Assembly (NCBI GenBank): GCA_031263785.1
Contig: JAISFC010000074.1
Location: forward strand, 1 to 36,695
Length of the DNA stretch: 36,695 bases
Direction of reading: 5' to 3'
From: Clostridiales bacterium
Lineage (GTDB): Bacteria > Bacillota > Clostridia > Monoglobales > WRBX01
The notes under the pieces are model-generated. The model did no database searches and was not told where the DNA came from. It saw nothing but the letters and a program-made list of their open reading frames with translations. Positions within the stretch are counted from its first letter, which is position 1; each line of letters opens with the position of its first letter. Below, in pieces: positions 1-13,272 of this stretch. Both the position numbers and the translations under genes were made by a program.

Positions 1-7269
<7,269 letters not shown>

Positions 7270-7650: not shown

Positions 7651-7679
7651 TTGACAAATGTCTTTGATTTATATATAAT
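7651..7679 (+). promoter_or_regulatory. Consensus promoter of the TerB/BrxD/helicase cassette
   Basis: TTGACA (7651-7656), exactly 17 nt, TATAAT (7674-7679): a perfect housekeeping-sigma consensus on the plus strand. The predicted start near 7686 leaves a leader of about 190 nt before the first ATG at 7876. No repressor site is recognised. Confidence 0.75.
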
Positions 7680-7692
7680 AGGACACAGTTAG

Positions 7693-7720
7693 ACTGAACT
7701 GACCCCAAGAAGTTAGATAA
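7693..7720 (+). mobile_element. Possible solitary IS3-type terminal repeat
   Basis: The stretch ACTGAACTGACCCCAAGAAG and the following TTAGATAAAG resemble the ends of IS3-family elements (CTGACCCC followed by AAGTTAGA). No transposase and no matching inverted end is visible near either end of the adjacent cassette. It may be a scar or chance similarity. The stretch to 7875 encodes nothing I recognise. Confidence 0.3.
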
Positions 7721-7875
7721 AGACTTAAGCAGCGATGGAATGAGTTCTGTATTTCACGACACTTGCTTCAATTTCTGAGAGAAGGATGTCTGCTCACAGG
7801 GTTTGTAAACAATGACGATTTAGAGCAAGCGAAGTTGACAAATGGATTCAAGCAGAAAAGGCGAAAAGGTGAGTT

Positions 7876-9789
7876 ATGCAATATATTATTTTAATTGTCA
7901 TTGCCATATTTTTGTTTGCTACTCCGGTTGGATGGTTTATTTTAGCGTGCATAATAATTGGAGTAATCATAGCCTGTATTGTTAAGAAGACAACCGTTAA
8001 CACTGCTTTTGATAACACAAATGTAAATGAATCTAACAATCTAAACACTATCCAGCCTGTTTCTAATCCTAAAGAGGGGGAAATCATGCAAAGTGGTCTA
8101 GAAAATTTGAGTGTTCAGCTTGATTATGCGCCAAATACCAATAAAAAAACTCAATCCGACTTTGAGTTCCATTTAGTAGAGCAAACAATAAATAAGCGAC
8201 AGGAACTAAACTTTACAAATAGTATATACACCCCGGAAAAACTCAGCATAAGCGAGCCAACCGATACAAATTATAATACACCAACTCCGTATGAAAAGTT
8301 TAAACAAATGAGAACTTTAATACATAATATATATAACGGTTACTATAGTTTTAGTTATTATGCAGCCGATAGTGAAGGGTTTGTTAAACAAGCAAAATTT
8401 ATGGAAAAATTTGAAGATAATTATAAAGATATAAAAGATTTTGAACAATATTCCCCTACCTACGCGAATATGGACGATGCTCAATTGAGAACATATTTTA
8501 CTTGGCGAACAAAAGTTCGCAACGGGAATGTTGAAAATGTTAGTTTATCATATGCTTATGTCTATATATATGAACTAATAAATAATATCGGCGTTTCAAA
8601 AAACGAAGATGGTCTGGAAAAATTAATAAATTTTTGGGTAGAATTTAGAAAATACAACGCGCATCTCGATAGATATTTACCTTCATGGTGTATGGATTAT
8701 TTTGTTGTCTATAACGATAATTTAGAAAATGATTTTAGTTATTACGCAAACCTATTTCCGATTGCTTTTACATCAAAAAAAGAAATGATTGACCAAATGA
8801 AAGATGGAAAATGGTCATTAGACTTTATCGAAACAGCTTCTTCGCACAAAATTTCGAAAACGGCATTTTATAAGCCTGAATATGAAGAAATAATTAACCA
8901 ATGCGTTCCATTTGTGTTAAATAATTTAAAGACATATTTTCAACAAAACAACTGGAATCTTTATAATTTATTCTTTGAAATATATGATAATAATTATTAT
9001 CATCCCTTTAGAAGCGCCGTTTGGAAAGAAATATATTATACAACTGATAAAATTGTTAAGTTAAATGATTATGAAGTTTATAAAAGCGTTAGCGGTTCTT
9101 GGCAATGCAAGGATGTAAACGTTTGGAAGTTTCGTGAAACGAAGGGATATATACTCAAATATATTGAAATTTTCATGCGTCTTAAGATTGGTGTGAGTCA
9201 ACGGCTTAAAGAACCCGAAGTTGCAAGAATTATAGGCGAATTTATATTATATAATCGGTCATGGAAAGTCGCTCCCGCATGGCATAAAGAAATTTTTGAA
9301 AAGTTTAAGTCGGGCGAAATCAAGACAGAAATCCGCAATGCTGTGGGAAAGTTTTTCTTCGAGAATAAAATAGTTATAAATAATGAAGGTGAAATTAAAA
9401 AGGTTAAGCCCATAGATATTGATATTTCAGCTTTAAGTAAAATACGTGAAGAACACAAGGAAATTGCCGAAAAATTGAACACAGATATAGAAAGTAACCG
9501 CGCAGAAATAATTGCAAAACCTATTATAGAAATCGCCCCTGCTTCTAATGGCTGGGATGGTTTCTTTCATGCTTTAAGCGCTGAAGAAATGGAGCTGATG
9601 CAATTATTGTTAAACAGCCATGATCTATCTAACTTCAAGGACCTTGAACTGACACTTGAATCCATTAACGAAAAAGCTTTAGATTTTATTGAAGATAATA
9701 TTATTGAAATAGTTGCCGAAGACCCATATATATACGATGAATATTTTGAAAAAACAGCAAATGTAATTGGAGGACAAGTTCATGGCTGA
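7876..9789 (+). CDS. Membrane-anchored TerB-N/TerB-C domain protein
   Basis: 637 residues; AAGGTG precedes the ATG. Residues 3-35 are strongly hydrophobic, one or two membrane segments, followed by a polar linker. Residues about 140-345 resemble the TerB-N domain: the stretch YANMDDAQLRTYFTWR, then a hydrophobic Tyr-rich segment, matches the family pattern 'S.EQ..YL.WR ... YVFLY.Y.LE'. Residues about 556-625 resemble TerB-C (LSAEEMELMQLLL, then LESINEKALDFIEDN). No separate TerB core is obvious between them. The gene overlaps the next by 8 nt, implying translational coupling. In the family, TerB-N/C proteins are linked to stress and putative defence systems. A sensor or scaffold role at the membrane is inference. 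Codon usage is A/T-rich compared with flanking genes. Confidence 0.75.
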   Translation: MQYIILIVIAIFLFATPVGWFILACIIIGVIIACIVKKTTVNTAFDNTNVNESNNLNTIQPVSNPKEGEIMQSGLENLSVQLDYAPNTNKKTQSDFEFHLVEQTINKRQELNFTNSIYTPEKLSISEPTDTNYNTPTPYEKFKQMRTLIHNIYNGYYSFSYYAADSEGFVKQAKFMEKFEDNYKDIKDFEQYSPTYANMDDAQLRTYFTWRTKVRNGNVENVSLSYAYVYIYELINNIGVSKNEDGLEKLINFWVEFRKYNAHLDRYLPSWCMDYFVVYNDNLENDFSYYANLFPIAFTSKKEMIDQMKDGKWSLDFIETASSHKISKTAFYKPEYEEIINQCVPFVLNNLKTYFQQNNWNLYNLFFEIYDNNYYHPFRSAVWKEIYYTTDKIVKLNDYEVYKSVSGSWQCKDVNVWKFRETKGYILKYIEIFMRLKIGVSQRLKEPEVARIIGEFILYNRSWKVAPAWHKEIFEKFKSGEIKTEIRNAVGKFFFENKIVINNEGEIKKVKPIDIDISALSKIREEHKEIAEKLNTDIESNRAEIIAKPIIEIAPASNGWDGFFHALSAEEMELMQLLLNSHDLSNFKDLELTLESINEKALDFIEDNIIEIVAEDPYIYDEYFEKTANVIGGQVHG

Positions 9790-11101
9790 AAATGAAATAC
9801 CTTTAAGAGTTGCGAACACATTATTAAATGCGTTAAAAGGCGGCGTTGTGCCCCGCACGGGACTTGGACATATAACCGTGGGCAGGAAAGATGAAATAGA
9901 CGCTTTATTACACGATGTCGAAACGATTACAGTTGGTGGCGCTACATTCCGTTTTGTTGTTGGCAAATACGGCGCCGGGAAAAGTTTTTTACTTCAAACG
10001 ATACGTAATTATTCAATGGACAAAGGATTCGTTGTAATGGATGCTGATTTATCACCCGAAAGAAGGTTAGTAGGGCATAAAGGCGAGGGATTGGCTACAT
10101 ATAAAGAGTTAATGAAGAACATATCCATTAAAGCCGCGCCCAATGGTGGCGCATTATCAATTTTGTTGCAAAGATGGATAAATGCGCTTAAAACCGACGT
10201 TATTAAAAATGGGGCAACTGACGACGAACAAATTAATAAGCAGGTTGAAATAAAAATACATGAAATCATTGATGAGTTGGAAACTATTGTTCATGGCTTT
10301 GATTTTGCAAGAATTATTTCTCTTTATTGGAAATCTTGCGTTAATGAAGATGATGATTTGAAAAGCAAAACTTTAAAGTGGCTACGTGGCGAGTATTCAA
10401 CGAAAACCGAGGCGAAAAATGAATTAGGAGTAGGCATTATAATAACTGATGATGACTGGTATGAATATATCAAACTTTTTGCTATGTTCGCCGTAAAAGC
10501 CGGTTATAACGGTATGCTTATGCTAATTGATGAGTTGGTTAATATTTTCAAAATTCCTCATTCAGTTTCAAGACAATACAATTATGAAAAGATATTAACT
10601 ATCTATAATGATATTATGCAAGGTAAAGCGAGCCATTTAGGAGTAATAATGTGTGGTACTCCTCAATGTATTGAAGATGCAAGACGTGGTGTGTTTAGCT
10701 ATGAGGCTTTAAAGTCTAGATTAGAAAATAGTCGTTTTTCCGACGATAATGTTAGAGATTTATTATCACCGATTATCAGGCTAAAAGTATTAACACCCGA
10801 AGAAATGTATATTTTAGTTGAAAAACTCTCATTAATACATGCACAAGTTTATTCTTGGTCGCCAACCGTAAGCCTGGCTGATTTAGAAATATTTATAAAA
10901 ACTGAATATTCACGCGTTGGCGCTGAAACAAATATCACTCCTCGCGAAATTATTCGTGATTTCATTGAAATATTAAATATTATTTATCAACATAGAGAAA
11001 AAACTATGCAAAGTATATTGGGTGGCGATTCATTTGAATTTGCGACCAATAATGAAACAGACGAACAAATACACGAAGAATTTAAGGGGTTCGAGATATG
11101 A
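9782..11101 (+). CDS. brxD-like: BrxD-like P-loop ATPase (DUF2791 / BREX ATP-binding type)
   Basis: 439 residues from ATG 9782, with GGAGG 8 nt upstream. An in-frame TTG at 9767 overlaps that site and is rejected. Walker A is GKYGAGKS (residues 61-68) and Walker B is LMLIDE (246-251). The opening pattern 'R.A...L..L..G.VP..GL..I.VGR..E' and the DADLSPERRL stretch after the P-loop fit the DUF2791/BrxD family, which in type 2 BREX (Pgl) loci sits beside an Lhr-like helicase. It overlaps the upstream TerB gene by 8 nt and the downstream helicase by 4 nt (ATGA). It presumably powers a nucleic-acid-handling complex with the helicase. No PglX methylase, PglZ or PglW is present, so this is not a complete BREX locus. 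Confidence 0.8.
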   Translation: MAENEIPLRVANTLLNALKGGVVPRTGLGHITVGRKDEIDALLHDVETITVGGATFRFVVGKYGAGKSFLLQTIRNYSMDKGFVVMDADLSPERRLVGHKGEGLATYKELMKNISIKAAPNGGALSILLQRWINALKTDVIKNGATDDEQINKQVEIKIHEIIDELETIVHGFDFARIISLYWKSCVNEDDDLKSKTLKWLRGEYSTKTEAKNELGVGIIITDDDWYEYIKLFAMFAVKAGYNGMLMLIDELVNIFKIPHSVSRQYNYEKILTIYNDIMQGKASHLGVIMCGTPQCIEDARRGVFSYEALKSRLENSRFSDDNVRDLLSPIIRLKVLTPEEMYILVEKLSLIHAQVYSWSPTVSLADLEIFIKTEYSRVGAETNITPREIIRDFIEILNIIYQHREKTMQSILGGDSFEFATNNETDEQIHEEFKGFEI

Positions 11102-13272
11102 GTGCATTTGAACAATTAGTGCCCTTTATTCAAGATTATATCTATAAAAACCGTTGGGAAGAACTTAAAGAAATTCAAGTTGCTTCTTGCGATGTTATCT
11201 TTAACACGGATAAAAACTTGCTTTTATCCACCCCTACCGCTTCCGGAAAAACAGAGGCAGCTTTTTTGCCAGCAATAACTGAAATATATAATCATTTCCC
11301 TTCTTCTGTTGGTATTCTTTATATTGCACCGTTGAAAGCGTTAATAAATGACCAATTTGCAAGAATTGAATATTTATTACAAGAGGCATATATACCTGTT
11401 ACAAAATGGCACGGGGATGCTTCGCAGTCGTTGAAAAGCAAGCTCCTTAAAAATCCACAAGGTGTTATGCAAACTACTCCTGAGTCATTAGAAGCCATGA
11501 TAATGAAACGAAAACAAGAAGTTATGCGCCTGTTTTCTGATTTGCGTTTTATTATAATCGACGAAGTTCATAATTTTCTTGGCGAAGATAGAGGCGTTCA
11601 ACTAACATCAATTTTAGAACGAATACAAAAAATAACTAATAATATCCCTCGTCGCATTGGATTATCCGCTACTTTGGGCAATGTGGAAATTGCAAAGCAA
11701 TGGCTTAATTGCGGAACAAACAAAGAATGCATATGCCCTGAAATTGCAAATGAAAGACGCAAATCGCAAATTATGATAAATCATTTTTATACAAACGAAA
11801 CTGATGCGAATGACGAAACTTGGGACATGTATTTTAATTCGTTATACAATTTAACAAAAGGTAAAAAGAGCATTATATTTTCGAATTCAAGACGCGCCGC
11901 CGAAGTCAATATAAATAGATTGAAACTTATTGCCGAAAAGAAAAAAGAACCTGATTTGTTTTTTGTCCACCACGGCAGTATTTCAAAAGAATTACGAGAA
12001 TATGCCGAAGAGCAATTAAGAAATGCCGAACTCCCATTGGTTGCAGGCGCCACTGTAACATTAGAATTGGGCATTGATTTAGGTGATTTAGAACGAATCG
12101 TGCAAACAGGTTCTCCTCATTCGGTGAGTAGTTTAGCTCAACGCTTGGGTCGGAGCGGGCGGCGCTCTGGCATCCCACAAATGTGTTTTGTGTTTGACGA
12201 AGATTACAAAAAGAATAGTATAATATATTACAAAACAATAAACTGGCATTTTATAAAGTGTATCGCTTTAATTGAATTATATAGAGAACGGTGGATTGAA
12301 CCAAAGAGAGTGGATAAATATCCATTTAATATTTTAGTTCATCAAACCCTTAGCTTTTTATATAGTTTTGGTGACATTGATGATTCGCTTTTAGCGCAAA
12401 GAATGTTAAGCGAGAAATCTTTCGAAAAAATAATTCAAAAAGATTTTAAGTTGTTATTAAATTTTATGATAAAAGAGAAATTACTTGAGAAAACTCAAGA
12501 AAACAAAATATCAATTGGTGAAAAAGGGGAATGGTTGGCTAATAATTATGAATTTTATTCTGTTTTTGAGAATCCCGTTGAATATTCCGTTAGAGAAGGT
12601 TCGCAAGAAATAGGAACATTATACGAAACGATACCGGTTGGTGAAAGATTTGTTTTATCCGGTAGAACTTGGGAAGTTTTAGAAATTGATAAAGAAAAAA
12701 GCAATATGTATGTTAAATATACTGGAGGGAAAAGTACCGTTAATTGGTTTTCCTCGGGGTTTGTCGAAGAATACACAAAAGTTCTGCAAAAAATGAGAGA
12801 AATCTTATTGTCTGACGAAGATTATGGGTATTTACATGAAACAGCAAAAATTAGATTGCGGGAAATTAGAAGTGTAATAAAAGAAAGCCGTGCGTTAGAA
12901 ACAAATGTGTTTCAAATTAGTCCAAATAAATATGGCATATTTCATTGGCTTGGGACAAGAGCATCAAATGCATTAAACTATATATTACGGTTCAAAGGAT
13001 TAGACATATTACGTGATGATTACGGCTTAGGTTGGGTCGTTACTCTTGTGGGAAATACAACTGAAAAAGATTTGTTAAATGTATTAGACGAAATAAAAAA
13101 TATCGAAATCACACCAGATGAACTTCCATTGCCAACAAAATTACCTAAACTTGGAAAATATGGTGAGTTTGTTCCATATGAATTGGCATTAAAACAATTC
13201 ATAGATAAATCACTAGATATTGAAGAAATGAAAGAAAATTTACAAGTAGGCGTCAACACCCAGGGGGATTGA
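11098..13272 (+). CDS. brxHI-like: Superfamily 2 DEVH helicase, Lhr/BrxHI-like
   Basis: 724 residues. Motif I is STPTASGKTEA (44-54), Ia is APLKALINDQ (78-87), II is DEVH (155-158), III is SAT (190-192), and a C-terminal RecA-like domain carries QRLGRSGRR near residue 350. The Lhr-type layout and the BrxD-like gene directly upstream match the brxD-brxHI pair of type 2 BREX. The remaining about 370 residues probably hold winged-helix and accessory domains; no nuclease motif is evident. ATG overlaps the stop of the previous gene in an ATGA, with AAGGGG upstream. It would act as an ATP-driven 3'-5' translocase on DNA or RNA. It ends convergently with sbcC, 115 nt away, with no clear terminator between. 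Confidence 0.85.
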   Translation: MSAFEQLVPFIQDYIYKNRWEELKEIQVASCDVIFNTDKNLLLSTPTASGKTEAAFLPAITEIYNHFPSSVGILYIAPLKALINDQFARIEYLLQEAYIPVTKWHGDASQSLKSKLLKNPQGVMQTTPESLEAMIMKRKQEVMRLFSDLRFIIIDEVHNFLGEDRGVQLTSILERIQKITNNIPRRIGLSATLGNVEIAKQWLNCGTNKECICPEIANERRKSQIMINHFYTNETDANDETWDMYFNSLYNLTKGKKSIIFSNSRRAAEVNINRLKLIAEKKKEPDLFFVHHGSISKELREYAEEQLRNAELPLVAGATVTLELGIDLGDLERIVQTGSPHSVSSLAQRLGRSGRRSGIPQMCFVFDEDYKKNSIIYYKTINWHFIKCIALIELYRERWIEPKRVDKYPFNILVHQTLSFLYSFGDIDDSLLAQRMLSEKSFEKIIQKDFKLLLNFMIKEKLLEKTQENKISIGEKGEWLANNYEFYSVFENPVEYSVREGSQEIGTLYETIPVGERFVLSGRTWEVLEIDKEKSNMYVKYTGGKSTVNWFSSGFVEEYTKVLQKMREILLSDEDYGYLHETAKIRLREIRSVIKESRALETNVFQISPNKYGIFHWLGTRASNALNYILRFKGLDILRDDYGLGWVVTLVGNTTEKDLLNVLDEIKNIEITPDELPLPTKLPKLGKYGEFVPYELALKQFIDKSLDIEEMKENLQVGVNTQGD

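Follow-up and report, generated by a model that had tools for sequence, protein, structure and literature searches.

The cassette studied here occupies positions 7876-13272 on the + strand of a 36,695-nucleotide stretch of DNA from a Clostridiales bacterium (the window, meaning the whole stretch that was analysed) and comprises, by ORF calling, three uninterrupted genes. The first two, sngA and sngB, overlap by 8 nt, and sngB and sngC by 4 nt (ATGA); a TTG at 9767 is a possible alternative start for sngB. They are preceded by a perfect sigma-70 consensus promoter; when intergenic regions of matching composition were simulated 20,000 times, a 12/12 match of this kind arose in 4. ORFs and promoter agree with a preliminary description of this DNA, made from the raw sequence, which had reported three overlapping genes behind one consensus promoter. 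The leader between promoter and sngA (7695-7875) starts with TGAACTGACCCCAAGAAGTTAGA, which resembles an IS3-type end. Because the leader is present in a single copy in the genome, an insertion sequence remnant upstream of sngA is not established, and this candidate was rejected. The features of the cassette are collected in Table 1.

Table 1. Features of the sngABC cassette, with positions in the window.
Feature	Position	Strand	Description
Perfect sigma-70 consensus promoter TTGACA-17-TATAAT	7651..7679	+	12/12 match; 196 nt upstream of sngA
sngA	7876..9789	+	637 aa, TerB_N + TerB_C (Pfam), N-terminal membrane hairpin; PADLOC SngA 5.4e-56
Predicted transmembrane helical hairpin MQYIILIVIAIFLFATPVGWFILACIIIGVIIACIVKK	7879..7986	+	SngA residues 2-37; hydropathy; AlphaFold2 helices 2-14, 17-37
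Alternative in-frame ATG (M71)	8086..8088	+	preceded by GAGGGGG; SngA starting here would be soluble and 567 aa long
TerB_N domain	8323..8910	+	SngA residues 150-345; Pfam 4.6e-32
TerB_C domain	9400..9753	+	SngA residues 509-626; Pfam 3.3e-8
sngB	9782..11101	+	439 aa from ATG, BrxC/D-family ATPase; PADLOC SngB 8.8e-179; PF10923 2.2e-159
SngB Walker A GKYGAGKS	9962..9985	+	motif intact
SngB Walker B LMLIDE	10517..10534	+	motif intact
sngC	11098..13272	+	724 aa, SF2 helicase; PADLOC SngC 3.4e-222
SngC motif I ASGKT	11239-11253	+	motif intact
SngC motif II DEVH	11560..11571	+	motif intact
SngC motif VI QRLGRSGR	12139-12162	+	motif intact

Both the TerB_N and the TerB_C domain of SngA exceed the Pfam cut-offs. 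SngC also contains motif III (SAT), motifs I, II, III and VI being complete, and matches the Pfam families DEAD (7e-31) and Helicase_C (5e-16) in addition to a sub-threshold match to WH_Lhr. The domains named in the preliminary description (TerB_N/TerB_C, a BrxD-like ATPase, an Lhr-like helicase) were thus recovered by the profile searches it had proposed, which gave matches to TerB_N, TerB_C, BrxC_BrxD and DEAD/Helicase_C. Profile searches found no nuclease domain on any of the three genes.

All three proteins match the respective PADLOC models of the Shango system, the matches spanning residues 6-434 of 444 in SngB and residues 2-713 of 724 in SngC. The sngB product scores 593 bits with the SngB model but only 151 bits with that of BrxD, and the sngC product 738 bits with the SngC model versus 429 bits with BrxHI, so the family names BrxD and BrxHI used in the preliminary description are wrong. 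Likewise, the NCBIfam equivalog model BREX_BrxD gives 152.9 bits for the sngB product, below its cut-off of 350. We conclude, with a probability of about 0.93, that positions 7876-13272 hold an intact Shango anti-phage operon in the order sngA-sngB-sngC. The association, which the preliminary description had left without a name, therefore has one, along with dedicated PADLOC models and phage data (PMC10250203); Shango is catalogued and this cassette is mostly ordinary, so that reading the raw sequence had found a true defence operon, one already on record.

Shango was described in 2022-2023 (Millman 2022, as cited in Johnson 2023, PMC10250203). Johnson et al. 2023 reported a three-gene operon encoding a TerB protein, an ATPase and a helicase in P. 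aeruginosa PA14, which cut plating of many phages by a factor of 10 to 100 and protected liquid cultures; the cloned PA14 copy restricts several phage families. They also noted that a copy from E. coli had come to light independently a little earlier (PMC10250203), and phage restriction by Shango is on record in both Pseudomonas and E. coli. The present operon agrees with Shango in gene content, gene order and domain classes (TerB, ATPase, DEAD/DEAH helicase). By analogy with the PA14 copy, from which restriction is known, it is most likely an anti-phage operon too, in line with the role that the preliminary description had considered likely.

The homologues of SngB and SngC in type 2 BREX are BrxD and BrxHI, an ATPase and an SF2 helicase whose genes are also adjacent and which likely share a loader-helicase relation (PMC12839542), and one might on these grounds take the cassette for what is left of a decayed type 2 BREX locus. 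We consider this extremely improbable. PglZ, which BREX requires, was not detected in the whole genome, and none of the window proteins covered by the Pfam scan was a BREX methylase, PglX, PglW or BrxC, consistent with the preliminary description, which had seen neither PglZ nor a methylase. Of 34 genomes with the cassette, just one has a convincing PglZ. Since that is so, and PglZ is absent here, the cassette is not a BREX fragment. The 82 large neighbouring proteins of relatives contained no BREX family among the PADLOC matches listed, and the neighbourhoods of relatives are not full BREX loci. The cassette differs from type 2 BREX also in its TerB_N/TerB_C protein, the Shango-specific models score far higher, and the three-gene unit recurs alone across phyla. 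Within the genomes sampled, the PglZ searches and the Shango-specific profiles refute a BREX origin of this kind.

Scanning 84,980 species genomes with SngB revealed 267 relatives, and the analysis was confined to the best 80 loci among them. Of these, 68 were testable for sngA, which lies directly upstream of sngB in 64, and 68 for sngC, which comes right after sngB in 59; all three genes are contiguous, in the order A-B-C, in 49 of the 59 loci that were fully testable. In most exceptional loci the missing gene is found a few kilobases off, several of them having genes between sngB and sngC. This co-occurrence, which the preliminary description had suggested counting, upholds its view of the three genes as one functional unit. 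None of the outcomes that it had named as refuting occurred. The hosts belong to the Bacillota, Spirochaetota, Synergistota, Planctomycetota, Acidobacteriota, Myxococcota and Actinomycetota. Searching annotated plasmids with SngB gave 682 matching records, most of them from Klebsiella and Salmonella, and 540 of the 682 are predicted to be conjugative; the four plasmid records examined (Paenibacillus, Klebsiella, Pantoea and Hymenobacter) encode a TerB_N protein, an ATP-binding protein and a DEAD/DEAH helicase in succession.

Some loci are arranged differently. Genes for NUDIX-like, membrane or other proteins lie between sngB and sngC at L051:11320-15684, L057:3970-5274, L076:11513-14729 and L082:11341-12862, and L071 has the order A-C-B. 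At L094:5563-10107, sngB is followed by a tandem pair of sngC genes, and more sngC genes occur on other contigs of that genome. A Spirochaetota locus with close relatives of SngB and SngC (L012:2-1474) has, directly in front of sngB, a SUMF1-like repeat protein (formylglycine-generating-enzyme-like, by eye) rather than SngA; this locus is at a contig edge, and sngA may lie further upstream. Finally, L139:3553-9264 and L140:5021-10180 form a branch of divergent Shango-like loci (268-276 bits for SngB, 276-296 bits for SngC), in which the first gene matches SngA in its C-terminal half only and, at L139, has an N-terminal TM2-like membrane region.

The N-terminal hairpin of SngA reaches a peak 19-residue hydropathy of 3.03, a value attained in 1 of 20,000 shuffles. 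In the AlphaFold2 model (mean pLDDT 80), a low-confidence linker extends to about residue 137, and a confident globular part begins at about residue 138. The internal start at M71 has a good ribosome-binding sequence of its own, so a soluble form may exist beside the tethered one, and production of SngA in both forms appears possible from the sequence. The membrane segment is absent from SngA of Catonella and Desulfosporosinus, the two closest relatives with sngA, and of the other top loci. A separate Clostridia clade (L093, L096, L104 and L110) has SngA proteins with at least two N-terminal membrane helices, one of them with a TM2 domain, and SngA of Klebsiella and Pantoea has a single N-terminal anchor. 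Mapped onto the SngB tree, the membrane label has to change at least twice, even when the proteobacterial anchors receive no label; the Klebsiella row of this tree (L127) has an extreme branch length and was used for no conclusion. Because other Shango lineages bear different anchors, tethering of SngA is recurrent, not universal. Of the membrane-anchored TerB protein in the preliminary description, the hairpin itself is thus real in the sequence, but it is not general to Shango, and the gene has the internal start at M71. A broader scheme, in which tethering arose repeatedly via unrelated anchors, with a major Shango branch at the inner membrane and soluble forms in the cytoplasm, strikes us as unlikely. 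If it held, the membrane branch would act on incoming or membrane-associated phage DNA and soluble forms likewise in the cytoplasm, the latter possibly even made from the same gene through an internal start.

SngA of Klebsiella and Pantoea differs from the present protein, with its two-helix hairpin, not only in the single anchor but also in the presence of a central TerB domain (PF05099) flanked by TerB_N and TerB_C. This domain is listed for Shango (PMC10952713), but neither the window nor any of 52 aligned relatives has a match to it at E<0.01, and the PADLOC SngA model does not require it. Strongly conserved residues include R211, R215, E233, R435, N598 and D607. These comparisons suggest that the core of SngA consists of TerB_N, TerB_C and the invariant residues, with anchors and the central TerB domain as accessories. 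In a structure search, the PDB yielded no significant match (best E 1.2), nor did the sequence match any solved structure; no enzymatic activity can therefore be assigned to SngA, and a cryptic catalytic function is possible. The conserved residues offer concrete targets for working out the mechanism of Shango, and the comparative picture of SngA anchors is a small new element.

Our literature search found no publication on that mechanism, the preliminary description had known of none worked out, and a 2026 review gives it as unknown (PMC12926258). Loading of BrxHI by BrxD is a published proposal (PMC12839542), and SngC, BrxHI, DruE and DpdJ form one clade of antiphage helicases (PMC12278908). 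By analogy, SngB, an ORC/Cdc6-like AAA+ ATPase, would load or activate the SF2 helicase SngC on phage DNA, and SngA would be a platform or sensor recruiting both, tethered in this organism to the membrane, the site of phage DNA entry or replication. As it translocates, SngC would then obstruct or unwind phage DNA instead of cutting it; because no recognisable nuclease is encoded, blocking of phage DNA replication or translocation seems likelier than cleavage. Since most relatives have no membrane anchor, recruitment to the membrane cannot be obligatory. We put this particular mechanism forward tentatively, at somewhat less than even odds.

The main rival to SngA as a platform is SngA as the effector: the ATPase-helicase would sense phage replication structures and switch SngA on, leading to membrane or nucleic-acid damage and abortive infection. 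Such a division of labour is known from Hachiman, in which the helicase HamB acts as sensor and controls the effector paired with it (PMC12278908), and it would fit a fold that has no match in the PDB, the strongly conserved residues listed above, and the membrane hairpin here with other anchors in other lineages. SngA has no recognisable nuclease or pore domain, however, and most of its relatives are devoid of a membrane segment; we regard an effector role as somewhat unlikely.

Either way, the system has parallels elsewhere. Like Shango, Hachiman (HamAB), Druantia (DruE) and Dpd (DpdJ) have an SF2 helicase at their antiphage core, DruE and DpdJ being those that cluster with SngC and BrxHI, but their partner proteins are unrelated, and Shango has no identified effector nuclease. 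Bunzi and Dionysus have a TerB-family component in common with Shango, but two reviews that cover them give no SngB/SngC pair (PMC10952713, PMC12926258).

The cassette adjoins sbcCD, which lies immediately downstream in convergent orientation; the other neighbours are housekeeping genes (seryl-tRNA synthetase, parAB, rho, gyrB), and no defence island is evident around it. TerB domains were first linked to tellurite and stress response. Together with the position of sbcCD, this could speak for a DNA-repair or stress cassette working with SbcCD instead of a phage defence system. The two differ in base composition, however: the cassette has a G+C content of 33.6% and a GC3 of 27%, compared with a G+C content of 43.5% for the contig and a GC3 of 45% for sbcC. 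The distribution is patchy as well: of 391 Clostridia genomes, 27 have SngA, and SbcC-like profile matches occur in only some neighbourhoods of relatives. Given also that hundreds of copies are on plasmids, most of them predicted conjugative, and that the P. aeruginosa copy restricts phages experimentally (PMC10250203), we consider a repair role with SbcCD very unlikely and retain the reading as Shango.

The low G+C content and the patchy distribution suggest horizontal arrival, and the cassette was probably acquired beside a chromosomal sbcCD. An SngC-grade match is present in only 4 of 60 relatives and absent from the nearest genome searched (G001), which is of the same family. A phage as carrier was rejected: no phage record or viral contig speaks for it, nor does a specific PHROG, the PHROG matches being to generic helicases only. 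On the - strand of the window, positions 1-7269 hold a giant ORF of at least 2,423 aa that runs off the contig. Two pieces of it gave no Pfam match. It contains many degenerate repeats ('DAIIVKYDANGDIEWAHNAGGT..DYFYGVT') as well as, at its predicted start, an Arg-Glu stretch derived from a (CT)n microsatellite, and looks like a secreted repeat or beta-propeller surface protein.
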